Positions 23,806 through 37,209 of a stretch of DNA of 63,818 nt are shown here, piece after piece. The notes below the pieces were generated by a model. The model ran no database searches, was not told the origin of the DNA, and saw only the letters and a list, made by a program, of their open reading frames with translations. Numbering within the stretch: position 1 is the stretch's first letter; every line of letters starts with the position of its first letter. The DNA lies in assembly GCA_028345575.1 (NCBI GenBank), contig JAOMDR010000004.1, positions 1 to 63,818 on the forward strand. The letters run 5' to 3'. The translations under genes were made by a program, and so were the position numbers. This stretch comes from Candidatus Nitrosopelagicus sp. (lineage in GTDB: Archaea > Thermoproteota > Nitrososphaeria > Nitrososphaerales > Nitrosopumilaceae).

Positions 23806-24042
23806 GTGACTGATTCGGACACATGTGGAGTTTGTAAGGGTGTTGGAACAATTGAATTGATTGATTCTCAATGTCCATTTTGTAATGGCACTGGTGAAAA
23901 CTCTACTGCTGCTGAAAGTTATATGAAATCACACATTTGCCAATGCATATTTCTTGATAGAAAGATGTGTCCAATATGTGGTGAGAAATGTCATCATGAT
24001 ACGCCACATAGACCAAAAATTAGAATTAGTCCAATAAATTAA
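23806..24042 (+). CDS. DnaJ-like cysteine-rich zinc-binding protein, 78 aa
   Basis: Starts at GTG, with a TATA-like GTTTAATT (23777-23784) ending 22 nt upstream. The N-terminal half holds CGVCKGVGTIE and CPFCNGTGEN, two CxxCxGxG repeats of the DnaJ central zinc domain. A second zinc site, CQCIF..MCPICGEKCHH, follows. There is no J domain, so this is not a DnaJ. A stand-alone zinc protein of unknown role; it overlaps the convergent hypothetical gene by 4 nt. Confidence 0.78.
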   Translation: MTDSDTCGVCKGVGTIELIDSQCPFCNGTGENSTAAESYMKSHICQCIFLDRKMCPICGEKCHHDTPHRPKIRISPIN

Positions 24043-24416
24043 GGCATAGGTGGAAGTTCGCTTTTTCTTCCATGTCCACCTGAACCAAATTTGCAGTAAA
24101 AACACAAATCTGATTGCATATGTGTTAGATGTTCGATCTGTATTGCTCCAATTTTTAATGCGATTTTTGTGAGAATTTTATACTTTAGTGGCATTGCTGG
24201 AATTACCTCTTTGATGTAAACTTGATAATGGTCTGGACAAAACTTGAGTGTCACGCGTGCAGCATCAGATCCTGCTTCATTGACCTGTTTTGCAAAGTTG
24301 ATCTGTTCTCGGATGTATTCATGTTTTGGACATGGACAATTTTTACCACCTGGGTGTTTATAGGCTGGAGTATTCTTCCAATCAAAATCCGGATATTCTT
24401 TTTCGAAATCATCCAT
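24039..24416 (-). CDS. Uncharacterised Cys/His-containing protein, 125 aa
   Basis: A 125-residue soluble protein. The N-terminal HPGGKNCPCPKHEY and the C-terminal HMQSDLCFYCKFGSGGHGRK could form one metal site brought together by the helical middle. I recognise no family. Conserved-looking Cys/His spacing and its position next to a DnaJ-like zinc protein suggest a metalloprotein; this is inference. Confidence 0.6.
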   Translation of the reverse strand: MDDFEKEYPDFDWKNTPAYKHPGGKNCPCPKHEYIREQINFAKQVNEAGSDAARVTLKFCPDHYQVYIKEVIPAMPLKYKILTKIALKIGAIQIEHLTHMQSDLCFYCKFGSGGHGRKSELPPMP

Positions 24417-24511: not shown

Positions 24512-25306
24512 ATGGCTACAGCAAAAAAGACAACAAAAAAGAAGTCTACAACATCAAAAAAAGATCTAGAAGCCAAAATTGCTGATTTAGAAGCAAAATT
24601 AAATAAATTAGCCGCAGCACAGGAAGCAAAACCAGCTGAGGCAGCTCCTAAACCAGCTGAAACAAAGCCGGCAGAAACTGCAAAACCAAAACCAGCAGAA
24701 ACTGCACCGGAACCAAAACCGGCAGAAACTGCAAAACCAAAACCAGCAGAAACTGCACCAAAACCAGCTGAGAAAGCACCTCCAGCATCAACCGAACTTC
24801 ACGAAAGATTCCGTGAAATTCCAACAGGAAACTGGAACACACAAAAAGTTGCAATCACTGGTTTCACTGCACCTGGTAACCGATACTTTGGTAGCAGAGC
24901 TCTTGTAGCACAAGTTGAAGTTTCACCATCCAACTGGAATGATCACAAAACAAAAATCACTGGTTACACAGCACCAGGAAACAAGTACTTTGCAACAAAA
25001 CAAAGACTTGCATATCATCCAGAAGCCAAAAAGTTTGGTACTTGGATAAAAGATACTCCTGCACCACAAGCAGAAAAACCAAAACCAGCAGAAGCCAAAA
25101 AGGCAGAAGCAGGTGGTCCACATGGACATGATGAAAAACCAGCAGAAACTAAAAAAGCAGAAGCTAAACCAAAAAAGGTAGATGCTAAAGGGGCAGATTG
25201 GAAATCACAAGAAGCTCAAGATGCATATGCTGCAAAAATGAAGGCTAAAGGCGCAACCTTACCAAAAGGATTCATCAAAGATGCAAAAGCAAACACAGGA
25301 CACTAA
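24512..25306 (+). CDS. Modular Lys/Ala/Pro-rich protein with two NW-TAPGN repeats and the AKANTGH tail
   Basis: 264 residues. A Lys/Thr-rich basic head (1-18), a short heptad helix DLEAKIADLEAKLNKL (about 20-35), and a KPAET repeat linker (38-90) come first. The central 80 residues hold two related repeats, GNWNTQK..ITGFTAPGNRYFGSR and SNWNDHK..ITGYTAPGNKYFATK, then HPEAKKFGTWI. After a GGPHGHDEKPA module comes the tail KGATLPKGFIKDAKANTGH. No signal peptide or membrane helix. The basic head suggests nucleic-acid binding. Three further genes downstream share its modules. Function unknown; I know of no characterised homologue. Confidence 0.85.
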   Translation: MATAKKTTKKKSTTSKKDLEAKIADLEAKLNKLAAAQEAKPAEAAPKPAETKPAETAKPKPAETAPEPKPAETAKPKPAETAPKPAEKAPPASTELHERFREIPTGNWNTQKVAITGFTAPGNRYFGSRALVAQVEVSPSNWNDHKTKITGYTAPGNKYFATKQRLAYHPEAKKFGTWIKDTPAPQAEKPKPAEAKKAEAGGPHGHDEKPAETKKAEAKPKKVDAKGADWKSQEAQDAYAAKMKAKGATLPKGFIKDAKANTGH

Positions 25307-25315
25307 TCATTAGTG
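25301..25315 (+). terminator. Stem-loop over the stop codon, copy 1
   Basis: CACTAATCATTAGTG, a palindrome that includes the last codons and TAA stop, followed by an A/T-rich and T-rich stretch. In RNA it forms CACTA-(ATCAT)-TAGTG. The same 15 bases recur after two more genes of this family. Confidence 0.5.
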
Positions 25316-25424
25316 TAAATTCTAGAACATTCTTTTTTCTTTTATTTTCTTTTAAAATTTCAATTTTTCTGTATATTTTATCTTCTAGAATTTTGTAATT
25401 AAATACTAAAACTAAATCCTGAAA

Positions 25425-25436
25425 TTAACATGTTAA
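25425..25436. promoter_or_regulatory. Palindrome upstream of the 52-aa tail gene
   Basis: TTAACATGTTAA, a perfect 12-bp palindrome that overlaps the start of the TATA region (25433-25444). It is placed where a regulator could block or recruit TFB. Confidence 0.35.
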
Positions 25437-25444
25437 TTAAATAT
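25433..25444 (+). promoter_or_regulatory. TATA box for the 52-aa tail gene
   Basis: TTAATTAAATAT ends 22 nt before the TTG at 25466, supporting that start for a gene with no ATG available. Confidence 0.5.
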
Positions 25445-25465
25445 CCATATCTGTGATCAAAGGAA

Positions 25466-25624
25466 TTGGCAAAATCAAAAAAAGCTACAGCAGCAGAAGA
25501 AGCAAAGAAAAAACAAGATGCTGCTGATAAAGCTAAAGCAGAATATATTGAAAAAATGAGAAAGAAAGGCGCAACCTTACCAAAAGGCTTCATTTCTGAC
25601 GCAAAAGCAAACACAGGACACTAA
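25466..25624 (+). CDS. 52-aa AKANTGH-tail protein (short form 1)
   Basis: A short gene with a TTG start; an in-frame TGA at 25454-25456 rules out anything earlier. The first half is Lys/Ala-rich (AKSKKATAAEEAKKKQDAADKAKAEY) and probably helical. The second half is EKMRKKGATLPKGF followed by ISDAKANTGH, nearly identical to the tail of the 264-aa gene upstream, and the DNA identity runs past the stop into the hairpin. This looks like a recent duplicate that kept only the tail plus a charged helix. Confidence 0.75.
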   Translation: MAKSKKATAAEEAKKKQDAADKAKAEYIEKMRKKGATLPKGFISDAKANTGH

Positions 25625-25633
25625 TCATTAGTG
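25619..25633 (+). terminator. Stem-loop over the stop codon, copy 2
   Basis: The same CACTAATCATTAGTG palindrome, again spanning the stop codon and followed by TAAATTCTAGAAC and a T run. Confidence 0.5.
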
Positions 25634-25722
25634 TAAATTCTAGAACTTTCTTTTTTTATTTCTATTTTTATCAATTCTTTTCTAAATCTGTCTTATTTAT
25701 TGAAAAAATCCCATATCATTAC

Positions 25723-25731
25723 ATAAATAAA
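25723..25731 (+). promoter_or_regulatory. TATA box for the 53-aa tail gene
   Basis: ATAAATAAA ends 23 nt before the ATG at 25754. The preceding TGAAAAAATCCCATATCATTACA segment resembles the sequence upstream of the 296-aa paralogue (26670-26692). Confidence 0.5.
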
Positions 25732-25753
25732 CAACTAAGGCTATGACCAATCT

Positions 25754-25915
25754 ATGGCTGGTCCACACGCACATGATGAAGAGCCAAAAAAAGAAGTAAA
25801 AAAAGCAGATGATGCTGAAGCAGCTAAAGAAGAATATGCTGCAGAAATGAAGAAAAAAGGCGCAACCTTACCAAAAGGATTCATCAAAGATGCAAAAGCA
25901 AACACAGGACACTAA
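25754..25915 (+). CDS. 53-aa AKANTGH-tail protein (short form 2)
   Basis: Begins MAGPHAHDEEPKKEVKK, a version of the GGPHGHDEKPA module found inside the two long paralogues. A charged helix follows (DDAEAAKEEYAAEMKK), then the tail KGATLPKGFIKDAKANTGH. It is therefore built from two modules of the long protein without the repeat core. An ATG start with a well-placed TATA box makes it very likely real. His-Asp-Glu residues at the N-terminus could bind metal (inference). Confidence 0.78.
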   Translation: MAGPHAHDEEPKKEVKKADDAEAAKEEYAAEMKKKGATLPKGFIKDAKANTGH

Positions 25916-25924
25916 TCATTAGTG
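25910..25924 (+). terminator. Stem-loop over the stop codon, copy 3
   Basis: The third CACTAATCATTAGTG palindrome, again overlapping the stop codon, followed by T-rich sequence. Confidence 0.5.
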
Positions 25925-26020
25925 TAAATTCTAAATTCTCTTTTTATTTTATTTTTTTACTTCTTTCTTGTAATTTTCATACATTTTTTCTCATTTTTCT
26001 GATCTCCCAGATCAGTATGA

Positions 26021-26028
26021 ATTAAATA
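26021..26028 (+). promoter_or_regulatory. TATA box for flavodoxin
   Basis: ATTAAATA ends 24 nt before the ATG at 26052. The ATG at 26028 overlaps the box and is excluded. Confidence 0.5.
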
Positions 26029-26051
26029 TGAATAGGATGAGGTTTTTCTTA

Positions 26052-26606
26052 ATGACAATCGGACTTTATTTTGGTACTCAAACTGGAAAAACTGAAACAG
26101 TTTGTGGTATAATTAAAGAACAACTAGGCGATGCAGTAGGAACTGCTAAAGATGTTACCGAAGCTGATTTGGCAGACTTTGCCGGTCTTGACGGTCTCAT
26201 ATGTGGCATTCCTACATGGAATACTGGAGCTGAAGAATTAAGATCTGGAACTGCTTGGGATGACCTATTAGAAAAAATTGGTGCATTAGATCTCAAAGGA
26301 AAGCCAGTCGCAATATTTGGCTTAGGTGACTCTGTTGGTTATGGACAAGACTATGTCGATGCAATGGAAGAACTACACAGATATTTCGAAAAAGCAGGTG
26401 CAAAAATGGTCGGATACGTAAGTCTTGACGGCTATGAGAACTTTACTAGTTCAAGATGTTTGATTCCACATCTCAATGAGATTACACAACCAGATGATGG
26501 TGAAAAGTTTTGTGGACTTCCTGTCGATGAAGATAGTGAAAATGAACTAACAGCAGAACGAGTAGAGAACTGGTGCACTCAGCTTAAATCTGAAATGGGA
26601 ATATAG
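26052..26606 (+). CDS. Flavodoxin, long-chain type
   Basis: 184 residues from ATG 26052. The FMN phosphate loop GTQTGKTET is at residues 8-16, with IPTWNTGAEELRSGTAWDD near 60 and FGLGDSVGYGQDYVDAM near 92 carrying the aromatic isoalloxazine contacts. The extra segment KMVGYVSLDGYENFTSS in the last strand marks the long-chain class known from bacteria. It carries single electrons in place of ferredoxin. It lies inside the AKANTGH-tail gene cluster without sharing sequence with it. Confidence 0.93.
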   Translation: MTIGLYFGTQTGKTETVCGIIKEQLGDAVGTAKDVTEADLADFAGLDGLICGIPTWNTGAEELRSGTAWDDLLEKIGALDLKGKPVAIFGLGDSVGYGQDYVDAMEELHRYFEKAGAKMVGYVSLDGYENFTSSRCLIPHLNEITQPDDGEKFCGLPVDEDSENELTAERVENWCTQLKSEMGI

Positions 26607-26727
26607 AACATCTACTATCCTCATTACAACTCCTTTTTTCAAATTTTTACATATTTTTGTTTATTTTTTTGAAAAAATTTTATGTCGTTACAAAATGCAC
26701 ATAAGCAACTAATTCCCTATTCCACCA

Positions 26728-27618
26728 ATGGCGACATCGAAAAAGCGTACAACAACAAAACGTAAAACAACAACAAAACGTAAAACAACAACAAAACGTA
26801 AAACAACATCTTCAAGAACCACAAAAGCTGATTTAGAAGCAAAGATTGCTCAATTAGAAAAGCGATTATCAGGTCTTGCCGCAGGTGCTGAATCAAAACC
26901 AGCTCCAAAACCAGCTCCAAAACCAGCTCCAAAACCAGCAGAAACTGCGCCAAAACCAAAACCAGCAGAAGTTAAAAAACCAGAAGGCGGTGGCGGTCCA
27001 CACGGACATGATGAAAAGCCTGCAGACAAGGCACCACCAAAGCCTGCAGAGAAAGCACCTCCAGTTCCACTTCACGAAAGATTCCGTGAAATTCCAACCG
27101 GAAATTGGAACACACAAAAAGTTGCAATCACTGGTTTCACTGCACCAAGTAACAGATACTTTGGTAGCAGAGCTCTTGTAGCGCAAACTGAAGTTACACC
27201 ATCCAACTGGAATGATCAAAAAACAAAAATTACTGGTTACACAGCACCAGGAAACAAGTACTTTGCAACAAGACAAAGACTTGCATATCATCCAGAAGCC
27301 AAAAAATTTGGTACTTGGATAAATGATGCTCCGGCAAGTGGACAAGCAAAATCTGCTCCACCACCTCCACCACCTCCACAACCTGAAGTTCAGGCTAGTG
27401 CTGGAAGTGCATCTGATGGAAAATCAAAGCAGCAAGAACTTGAAGATTATGAGAAAGAATACTTGGTACGTCTAGAACAGAAAAAAGTTGATGATGCAAA
27501 AGCAGCAGCAGAAGCAGCCGCAGCAGAAGCAGCAGCAACCGCAGCCGCACAATCTAACCGAGGCTCAATGCCAAAAGGTTGGGGACCTGCAGGTGCAAAA
27601 GCAAACACTGGACATTAA
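26728..27618 (+). CDS. Modular Lys/Ala/Pro-rich protein, long paralogue 2
   Basis: 296 residues. A basic head with three TTTKRK repeats, a heptad helix DLEAKIAQLEKRLSGL, then (APKP)n and KPAE linkers and the GGGGPHGHDEKPA module. The repeat core is nearly identical to that of the 264-aa paralogue (GNWNTQK..TAPSNRYFGSR, SNWNDQK..TAPGNKYFATR, HPEAKKFGTWI). After a Pro run and an Ala-rich helix it ends MPKGWGPAGAKANTGH, a divergent tail. The order of modules differs: GGPHGHDEKPA lies before the core here but after it in the first paralogue. No signal peptide. Function unknown. Confidence 0.85.
   Translation: MATSKKRTTTKRKTTTKRKTTTKRKTTSSRTTKADLEAKIAQLEKRLSGLAAGAESKPAPKPAPKPAPKPAETAPKPKPAEVKKPEGGGGPHGHDEKPADKAPPKPAEKAPPVPLHERFREIPTGNWNTQKVAITGFTAPSNRYFGSRALVAQTEVTPSNWNDQKTKITGYTAPGNKYFATRQRLAYHPEAKKFGTWINDAPASGQAKSAPPPPPPPQPEVQASAGSASDGKSKQQELEDYEKEYLVRLEQKKVDDAKAAAEAAAAEAAATAAAQSNRGSMPKGWGPAGAKANTGH
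26749..26802 (+). repeat. Three exact 18-bp tandem repeats
   Basis: The unit ACAACAACAAAACGTAAA occurs three times in a row and encodes the TTTKRK repeats of the basic head. Copy number could vary by slippage. Confidence 0.9.
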
Positions 27619-36481: not shown

Positions 36482-37135
36482 TTAAAATCCTGGTTGGAAT
36501 CCGGCATCCATGAATCCTCCACCGTCTCCACCTGCATCACCAAAGTCTCCACCTGCATCACCAAAGTCTCCACTACCATCTGCATCATGTGCATAATCAA
36601 CTTCAGCTATAAAATCTGCCATCATCATGTGATTCATTCCTAACATACTTCCCATCATTGCTCCATTCGCAAATCCCATCATCATCATTAAAGGAAAAAA
36701 ACTTCTATTTGCATTCATTCCTTCACGTAATTTTTCTTTGTCTTTCTTTTCATACAACAAAACCAGTTTATCCCATTCATCTTTTAATTCATCAATTTTT
36801 TTTTCAATTGTTTCACTTCCTTTTTCTGTGAGTTTTAATGTGGGATCAAGATTACGTGTAAGCCAACCCTCTTTCTTATCTGGACTAACTAACTCATGTG
36901 CTTCTAATCTTTTGGCAGATGAATTCATCTTTAACATTCCAATTTTAGGTAAACGCTTTCCAATTCTAGCCCATTTAGACAATCCATTTCTAATCAATCC
37001 CATGATTACATAATCTAGAGGCTCTAATTCTGATGCAGTTCTTACTTTTGAAATAAGATCTTTAGGATTAATTTTCTTACCTTCTTTTACTCTCTCAAGA
37101 TAATCTTTTTCATATTCTTCAAGGTCTTTACCCAT
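36482..37135 (-). CDS. Uncharacterised protein with winged-helix-like core and Gly/Asp-rich tail
   Basis: About 217 residues from MGKDLEEYEKDYL (an ATG six codons earlier, at 37153, is possible). Residues 20-120 look like a winged-helix pair: LDYVIMGLIRNGLSKWARIGKRL, then EAHELVSPDKKEGWL and LKLTEKGSETIEKKI. A Met-rich hydrophobic segment (FFPLMMMMGFANGAMMGSMLGMNHMMM, read in two parts) follows, and a tail of DFGDAGG repeats. It could sit on the membrane through the Met-rich part. I recognise no named family. Confidence 0.68.
   Translation of the reverse strand: MGKDLEEYEKDYLERVKEGKKINPKDLISKVRTASELEPLDYVIMGLIRNGLSKWARIGKRLPKIGMLKMNSSAKRLEAHELVSPDKKEGWLTRNLDPTLKLTEKGSETIEKKIDELKDEWDKLVLLYEKKDKEKLREGMNANRSFFPLMMMMGFANGAMMGSMLGMNHMMMADFIAEVDYAHDADGSGDFGDAGGDFGDAGGDGGGFMDAGFQPGF
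36527..36568 (-). repeat. 21-bp tandem duplication encoding GDFGDAG
   Basis: A 21-bp unit (plus strand CCACCTGCATCACCAAAGTCT) is present twice, coding for the DFGDAGG repeats in the acidic tail of the preceding gene. Confidence 0.75.
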
Positions 37136-37209
37136 GTTGATCACTAAGGGCATAATTATAGATAAGATTTTCTAAAAAAAGAAAAATAAAATAAAAAAAG
37201 ATTATAGAA

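Follow-up and report, generated by a model that had tools for sequence, protein, structure and literature searches.

Four neighbouring genes of a Candidatus Nitrosopelagicus genome raise the question of which part of their shared, modular make-up is conserved and what it may be for. They lie in the window, by which we mean the whole stretch of 63,818 nucleotides analyzed (contig 34 of a genome of 1.10 Mb, 86% complete, with close relatives that bear the names Candidatus Nitrosopelagicus or marine group I thaumarchaeote), and they comprise two long genes, encoding proteins of 264 and 296 amino acids (aa) with a two-repeat core in common, and two mini-genes encoding 52 and 53 aa. A preliminary description had regarded them as a family united by a C-terminal AKANTGH tail and produced by module shuffling of an abundant, possibly nucleic-acid-binding or scaffolding system. 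Its observation is confirmed, all four open reading frames (ORFs) and their common modules being present in the sequence; its interpretation is partly supported. The interval, described as one of four genes, also contains an unrelated flavodoxin gene, FldA (26028-26606). Our analysis points to an LPKG-aromatic motif as the older conserved element, one that also stands at the N-terminus of AmoX, a protein of the ammonia monooxygenase (AMO) gene cluster.

In what follows, G labels the genomes compared, g their genera, L stretches or loci, and f1 and f8 families. Family f1 we take to be Nitrosopumilaceae, from the place of Nitrosopelagicus in GTDB (at NCBI the genus has no family placement), while f8 is probably Nitrososphaeraceae, judging in part from its type of AmoX.

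In the window genome a near-identical stretch of 19 residues indeed ends the 264-, 52- and 53-aa proteins, while the 296-aa protein, assigned the same tail, ends differently in RGSMPKGWGPAGAKANTGH; a further, fifth copy ends a coiled-coil ORF on another contig. AKANTGH itself proved to be an extension, found in Nitrosopelagicus and one other genome. LPKGF is the exact end of 22 of 26 core proteins from other genera, the remaining ones being a protein with the Nitrosopelagicus tail (G122), a masked one (L093, first copy), one that ends in MPQGWKP and one lacking a C-terminal copy. The older tail reads (K/R)G(T/S)LPKGF, sits mostly at the extreme C-terminus and is often repeated in linkers; many relatives carry further LPKG copies in their Pro-rich linkers, and each long protein of the window has a single copy, one of them an MPKGW variant. 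In Nitrosopelagicus the C-terminus was lengthened to LPKGFIKDAKANTGH; locus L014, with a core 90% identical, still ends in GTLPKGF and has neither mini-genes nor flavodoxin, and the C-terminus of deeper members of the genus reads MPKGWKPS or AMPKGF.

The 19-residue tail also travels, in agreement with the proposed shuffling: it forms the C-terminus of an unlinked protein, up to 839 aa long and similar to DUF3892 at its N-terminus (21.6 bits against a cut-off of 22.3; a neighbouring stand-alone copy scores 23.4), as well as that of a core protein of another genus. The latter (L091, 2401-2844, minus strand; genus g14, the G122 protein mentioned above) ends in LGATLPKGFIKDAKANTGH, possibly by transfer of the tail. 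Another protein, of 723 aa, was observed in G006 (genus g3, same family; L132, 1313-3484, minus strand); Pro-rich spacers separate its 13 LPKGF and two MPKG copies, an EYERDYL motif is also present, and its N-terminus is 35% identical to the DUF3892-like N-terminus of L097.

What is conserved in the tail is the protein. For 22 distinct DNA tails, selected on the basis of a DAKxNTGH end, the proportion of synonymous differences (pS) over the first 12 codons was 0.62 and that of nonsynonymous differences (pN) 0.015, a ratio of 0.023, and pN was 0 over LPKGF. A first ratio of 0.096 came from tails picked for LPKGF and NTGH and so leans low; repeated on codons outside the selection it was 0.127. 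Since silent changes far exceed replacement changes, it is the peptide that selection keeps.

The link to AmoX came from the DNA pattern of LPKGF in eight f1 genomes, which gave 50 sites with a true leucine codon (FPKGF sites, also caught by the degenerate first codon, were excluded from the count). The pair of long genes, the mini-genes, the genes of DUF3892-type proteins and the AmoX gene account for 46 of these sites; the other four are unrelated, one in the interior of a nuclease-like protein (L135) and three in frames without a plausible gene (L137, L139 and L143). The AmoX gene encodes a protein of ~120 aa that starts MTLPKGFGSGG and lies between amoC and amoA, with amoB adjoining; AmoC, AmoA and AmoB of this cluster were confirmed by Pfam, and no model covers the ~120-aa protein. 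We take it to be AmoX from the position of the gene and from PMC10030591, which describes AmoX as a two-helix AMO subunit. AmoX matches occur in 207 of 330 genomes of the order. Fifty AmoX genes were retrieved by homology, comprising the 30 best matches and a further 20 chosen from those listed (40 from f1 and 10 from f8, with f2 and f3 not represented), and every one reads M[TA]LPKG[FYW] at an ATG. The ends of AmoX are charged and the loop between its helices is not, so by the positive-inside rule the N-terminus probably faces the cytoplasm. Apart from the shared hexapeptide TLPKGF, BLASTP revealed no likeness between the window proteins and AmoX, which is a membrane protein encoded in the amo cluster.

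Moreover, the motif behaves as an N-terminal tag in other proteins. We sought the pattern ATG-[TAS]LPKG-[F/Y/W/L/C] in 75 genomes, with the reversed pattern as control, which gave 0 sites in the same set. Exactly one site was present in each of the 24 f1 genomes, all of them verified AmoX, and no site in any of the 18 genomes without an AmoX match. In f8 the tag was found in 23 of 25 genomes, at 41 sites: 23 in AmoX (22 translated, that of G294 assigned from its codons alone), 10 in a protein of 85-87 aa, 6 in a protein with AEEKAKRE-type repeats and 1 in a protein of 385-plus aa, the forty-first being a 9-residue frame in G401 that was discarded. Once the first eight residues are removed, BLASTP comparison among the f8 tag proteins, AmoX and the window proteins gives nothing below E 3. 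From the residue frequencies of the window proteins, [ST]LPKG[FYW] at residue 2 is expected ~0.0003 times per proteome of 1,400 proteins. A 198-aa zinc-ribbon protein has the same start after a GTG codon. Unrelated proteins that are alike solely in a terminal hexapeptide, together with internal and C-terminal copies in the pair, form the pattern of a docking peptide.

Several observations on these f8 proteins can be added. The 85-87-aa protein (L297, 31-291, plus strand, with relatives in nine other f8 genomes) is conserved and starts MTLPKG[FY]; the one copy tested matched no Pfam or NCBIfam model. The MTLPKGY proteins with long, length-variable AEEKAKRE-type repeats (L312, 564-1274, minus strand; L294, L296, L298, L299 and L302) are coiled-coil proteins, mostly with a common aromatic C-terminus, and the G256 copy (L298) seems frame-shifted within the repeats. 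Around two of the f8 genes for MTLPKG proteins, inspection by eye revealed no amo or polyhydroxyalkanoate (PHA) genes. An SLPKGF in the interior of a nucleotidyltransferase-like protein, present in two f8 genomes (L226 and L228), was set aside.

The reading to which we tentatively lean, without putting it above an even chance, is that LPKG-aromatic is a portable docking motif of ammonia-oxidising archaea, that the long proteins are multivalent scaffolds and that the mini-genes encode nearly bare ligands. AmoX would offer one copy on the cytoplasmic side, and the long paralogues, oligomerising through their short coiled coil, would present one to several copies at the C-terminus and in Pro-rich linkers, giving a multivalent platform for the binding partner of the motif. 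That partner, whether a hub or AMO itself, might then gather AmoX and the paralogues at the inner face of the membrane. In Nitrosopelagicus, where the C-terminus has been lengthened, the 3' end of the 264-aa gene would have been copied into tail-only mini-proteins, which may be single-valence ligands capping or tuning the network. Directly observed are the motif with its locations and taxonomic distribution, selection on the peptide, and the common 3' ends of three genes; the rest of this reading is inferred. The fuller version, a dedicated cytoplasmic organiser of AMO in which a hub reads TLPKG-aromatic on AmoX and on the scaffolds and so clusters or regulates AMO at the membrane, with micro-proteins tuning this in open-ocean Nitrosopelagicus, we consider unlikely as a whole. 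If it were true, a single hexapeptide would connect an AMO subunit, through its exposed end, with a scaffold pair found across the family, and in soil-type relatives with other proteins, and AmoX would have a reason for keeping its glycine-tethered N-terminus.

A number of results weigh against the docking reading. No receptor for the motif was found, and contact with AMO is something we infer. AmoX was not found in the window's own, incomplete genome, and the pair is neither part of the amo cluster nor adjacent to it (22 of 23 loci place it beside other genes, described below). AMO as such does not need the motif, since six f2 and two f3 genomes have AmoX without a tag site and the N-terminal pattern is missing from two f8 genomes. 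Genomes G178 and G179 (genus g15) have core matches, but [ST]LPKG[FYW] hit AmoX alone in them, so that the pair there has another tail or none. The end of some relatives is MPKGW or MPQGW followed by two or three residues, one relative has no C-terminal copy, and valence in the window is low, with one copy per long protein, one of these being a variant. The core is confined to f1 and the motif is wider, which makes the core an unlikely general receptor. Finally, the published AMO complexome (PMC10030591) comes from two species that do not belong to Nitrosopumilaceae and so has no bearing on these proteins.

The use of multivalent disordered linkers that carry short docking peptides is a known principle, exemplified by CsoS2 of carboxysomes and EPYC1 of pyrenoids, which are disordered and basic and organise an enzyme through repeated short motifs and sometimes a C-terminal peptide. 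The proteins described here are likened to them by description and not by sequence; they differ in the LPKG-aromatic motif and in the putative membrane-enzyme partner. A short motif repeated in Pro-rich linkers is found in the relatives, the window proteins having one copy each. Cargo peptides of microcompartments and encapsulins are likewise short and sit at the N- or C-terminus of unrelated proteins, although here the sequence is another one and internal copies exist. The K/P/A-rich basic segments and short coiled coil also recall histone H1-like tails and the phasin PhaF, from which the present proteins differ by the conserved core and the LPKG motif, and no phasin or histone domain was found in Pfam or NCBIfam.

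Other explanations compete with the docking reading. The long proteins could be nucleoid or RNA-binding proteins, with K/R/T-rich heads, KPAE linkers like H1 tails, core repeats that are divergent RNase H1-type hybrid-binding (viroplasmin) units, and LPKG as a secondary contact. The heads are indeed basic, and 9 of 19 core sequences match Pfam PF01693 at E up to 0.1, sharing a weak pattern, WNxxKAxVxGYxxxxxxYFAT, with the N-terminal domain of RNase H1; hhalign scored 22.3, where 50 column shuffles reached at most 13.0 (probability 28%, repeat 2 alone 48%). This sub-threshold likeness is the one lead for the nucleic-acid binding that had been suggested. However, the best E value, 0.016, is not significant, being the best of 19 related sequences each compared with 24,736 families, none of 17 genomes reaches the PF01693 cut-off (21 bits), the domain staying below it everywhere tested, the hhalign match covers 23 columns only, and AlphaFold2 (AF2) gave no fold. 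The N-terminus of AmoX is also left unexplained, and we judge this account doubtful. AmoX is equally a difficulty for the proposal that the proteins coat PHA storage granules, in the manner of PhaF tethering granules to the nucleoid, with LPKG recruiting proteins to the granule. Possible PHA granules and PhaE/PhaC are reported for Nitrosopumilus maritimus in PMC11082331. The AAKP-like linkers recall PhaF, and a faint match to Phasin_2 (E 0.073) was obtained for one f8 MTLPKGF protein; that match is below the cut-off and the four window proteins have no phasin match in Pfam or NCBIfam, which leaves the granule proposal improbable.

The AmoX match could instead be a coincidence, or a constraint internal to AmoX, with LPKGF in the paralogues a linker and tail motif of one family. 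AmoX is a single orthologous site, so that its conservation counts once, and the f2 and f3 genomes that have AmoX lack the pattern. Yet the same N-terminus is found on three further unrelated protein types in f8, the expectation at residue 2 is about 3e-4 per proteome, and both the reversed control and the relatives without an AmoX match gave zero; we therefore regard coincidence as quite improbable too, by a hair less so than the granule proposal. Hardly credible is the idea that the tail is a DNA or RNA element, a mobile repeat or 3' signal translated by chance. It would account for tail, stop codon and hairpin being nearly identical DNA in three neighbouring genes, but for the peptide it is already refuted by the excess of silent changes reported above, and the 3' flanks elsewhere are different, that of the three genes being absent after the 296-aa and DUF3892-type genes.

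Returning to the family behind the docking reading, the core (86-aa query) matched in 175 of 250 f1 genomes, in 108 of 131 near-complete ones, and in at least one genome of each of the 22 genera; with relatives this widespread the core family is not a chance find. Outside f1 there was no convincing match in 75 genomes, seven of which had one at E<=1; the best (2.1e-4) crosses three stop codons and was rejected, and the remainder were at 0.08 or higher. None was found in viral contigs. The statement that no characterised member exists was borne out: no Pfam or NCBIfam model reached its cut-off in any of the four window proteins, core included, and none was identified among PHROGs or in a profile search of the PDB. 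In PHROGs, searched without a cut-off, the single match (E 0.0037) was of the 52-aa protein to a family of unknown function, and two short fimbrial matches in the PDB were rejected as chance. The suggested structure prediction was less informative: on shallow alignments the mean predicted local distance difference test (pLDDT) score was 46.6 for the 264-aa protein and 46.3 for the core alone, the 264-aa model having helices at residues 16-38 (block mean pLDDT 70-91) and 225-245 and values below 50 over residues 40-227. In the favoured reading the long paralogues would be soluble and mostly disordered.

Among the 23 single-contig genomes listed with a core match, 17 had two matches and 6 had one; a distance of ~0.7 to 2.6 kb separates the two copies in the loci whose coordinates were read. 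Of 23 loci compared, several being near-identical ones from Nitrosopelagicus, 22 have the pair (or the lone copy) flanked by a divergent 125-aa gene on one side and a peroxiredoxin gene (Bcp) on the other; in L089 the peroxiredoxin side alone was visible in the stretch compared. The core family, the LPKG motif and its tie to AmoX appear new, no earlier description having been found in a search that most subscription papers and all preprints lay outside. In the literature searched, no paper paired LPKG with "ammonia-oxidizing archaea", nor AmoX with its N-terminus, and LPKGF, among the matches listed, was mostly that of a coronavirus nucleocapsid protein.

As for the origin of the mini-genes, the 264-aa gene and both mini-genes share a hairpin and a flank past the stop codon in nearly identical DNA; no such hairpin and flank follow the 296-aa gene or the gene of the DUF3892-type protein. 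The hairpin is no more stable than its shuffles (z -0.7 to -1.2) and may be a terminator or mRNA end signal. The regions upstream of the 53-aa and 296-aa genes align with a score of 36, above all 200 shuffles, and are the sole such pair of ten compared. With its upstream region like that of the 296-aa gene and its 3' end and hairpin like those of the 264-aa gene, the 53-aa mini-gene at least looks like a chimera of the two paralogues, as expected from module shuffling. Two mini-genes lie between the first long gene and the flavodoxin in the window, L007, L009, L012 and L079, and none in L008. Abundance, also claimed for the system, receives indirect support in part: ranked by amoABC-like codon use among 63 window ORFs, the mini-genes are 1 and 2 and the 264-aa gene 4, which hints at high expression, bearing in mind that the mini-genes are short, while the 296-aa gene is only 23.

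The features of the locus are collected in the table below. The mini-genes carry the tail as described, with a charged helix and, in the 53-aa one, the GPHxHDE module; this module occupies different places, lying at residue 202 of the 264-aa protein, at residue 90 of the 296-aa protein and at the start of the 53-aa one. The heptad helix of the long proteins is short, and core repeats 1 and 2 are 52% identical across 29 columns.

Table. Features of the four-gene locus and related elements in the window (positions are those of the whole stretch).
Feature	Positions	Strand	Evidence or remarks
264-aa paralogue: basic head, coiled coil, P/A/K linker, two-repeat core, GPHGHDE module, helix, tail	24512..25306	+	AF2 helices at residues 16-38 and 225-245
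Two-repeat core (86 aa) of the 264-aa protein	24797..25054	+	Matches in 175/250 family genomes, 22/22 genera; alignment
Tail KGATLPKGFIKDAKANTGH with TLPKGF motif, 264-aa protein	25247..25303	+
Hairpin ACACUAAUCAUUAGUGU overlapping the stop codon of the 264-aa gene, then T-rich tract	25300..25316	+	Also 3' of both mini-genes
52-aa mini-gene: charged helix and tail	25466..25624	+	TTG start
53-aa mini-gene: GPHAHDE module, charged helix, tail	25754..25915	+	Upstream like that of the 296-aa gene
Flavodoxin FldA, not a family member, between mini-genes and 296-aa gene	26028..26606	+	Pfam Flavodoxin_1 3.1e-20, NCBIfam FldA 4.2e-62
296-aa paralogue: K/R/T-rich head, coiled coil, GPHGHDE, core, poly-Pro, EDYEKEYLVR helix, tail	26728..27618	+
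Two-repeat core of the 296-aa protein	27070..27327	+	93% identical to the core of the 264-aa protein
DYEKEYL motif of the 296-aa protein	27445..27465	+	Common to other proteins
Tail RGSMPKGWGPAGAKANTGH (MPKGW variant), 296-aa protein	27559..27615	+
223-aa protein with EYEKDYL motif near N-terminus, otherwise unrelated	36482..37153	-

Regarding the neighbours, across the 23 loci a flavodoxin inside the pair was detected solely in the AKANTGH-tail Nitrosopelagicus loci L007, L008, L009, L012 and L079, and not in L014, L017, L019 or the stretches from other genera. The Cys/His-rich 125-aa protein (window 24039-24416, minus strand), which is 78-100% identical among the 22 loci where it flanks the pair, has no Pfam or NCBIfam match.

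A second motif, [DE][YF]E.[DE]YL, is shared by the larger paralogue, the DUF3892-type proteins, a protein of 140-149 aa and the N-terminus of the 223-aa protein, and suggests several interacting peptides instead of one; EFEPxYL matches in an unrelated protein of 273/274 aa were rejected. The 140-aa protein, from the window genome (L101, 1156-1578, minus strand), carries SEYEKDYLERL close to its start, its K/R-rich end, KKAAPKRK, is H1-like, and a 149-aa protein of G052 (L255) has a similar start.

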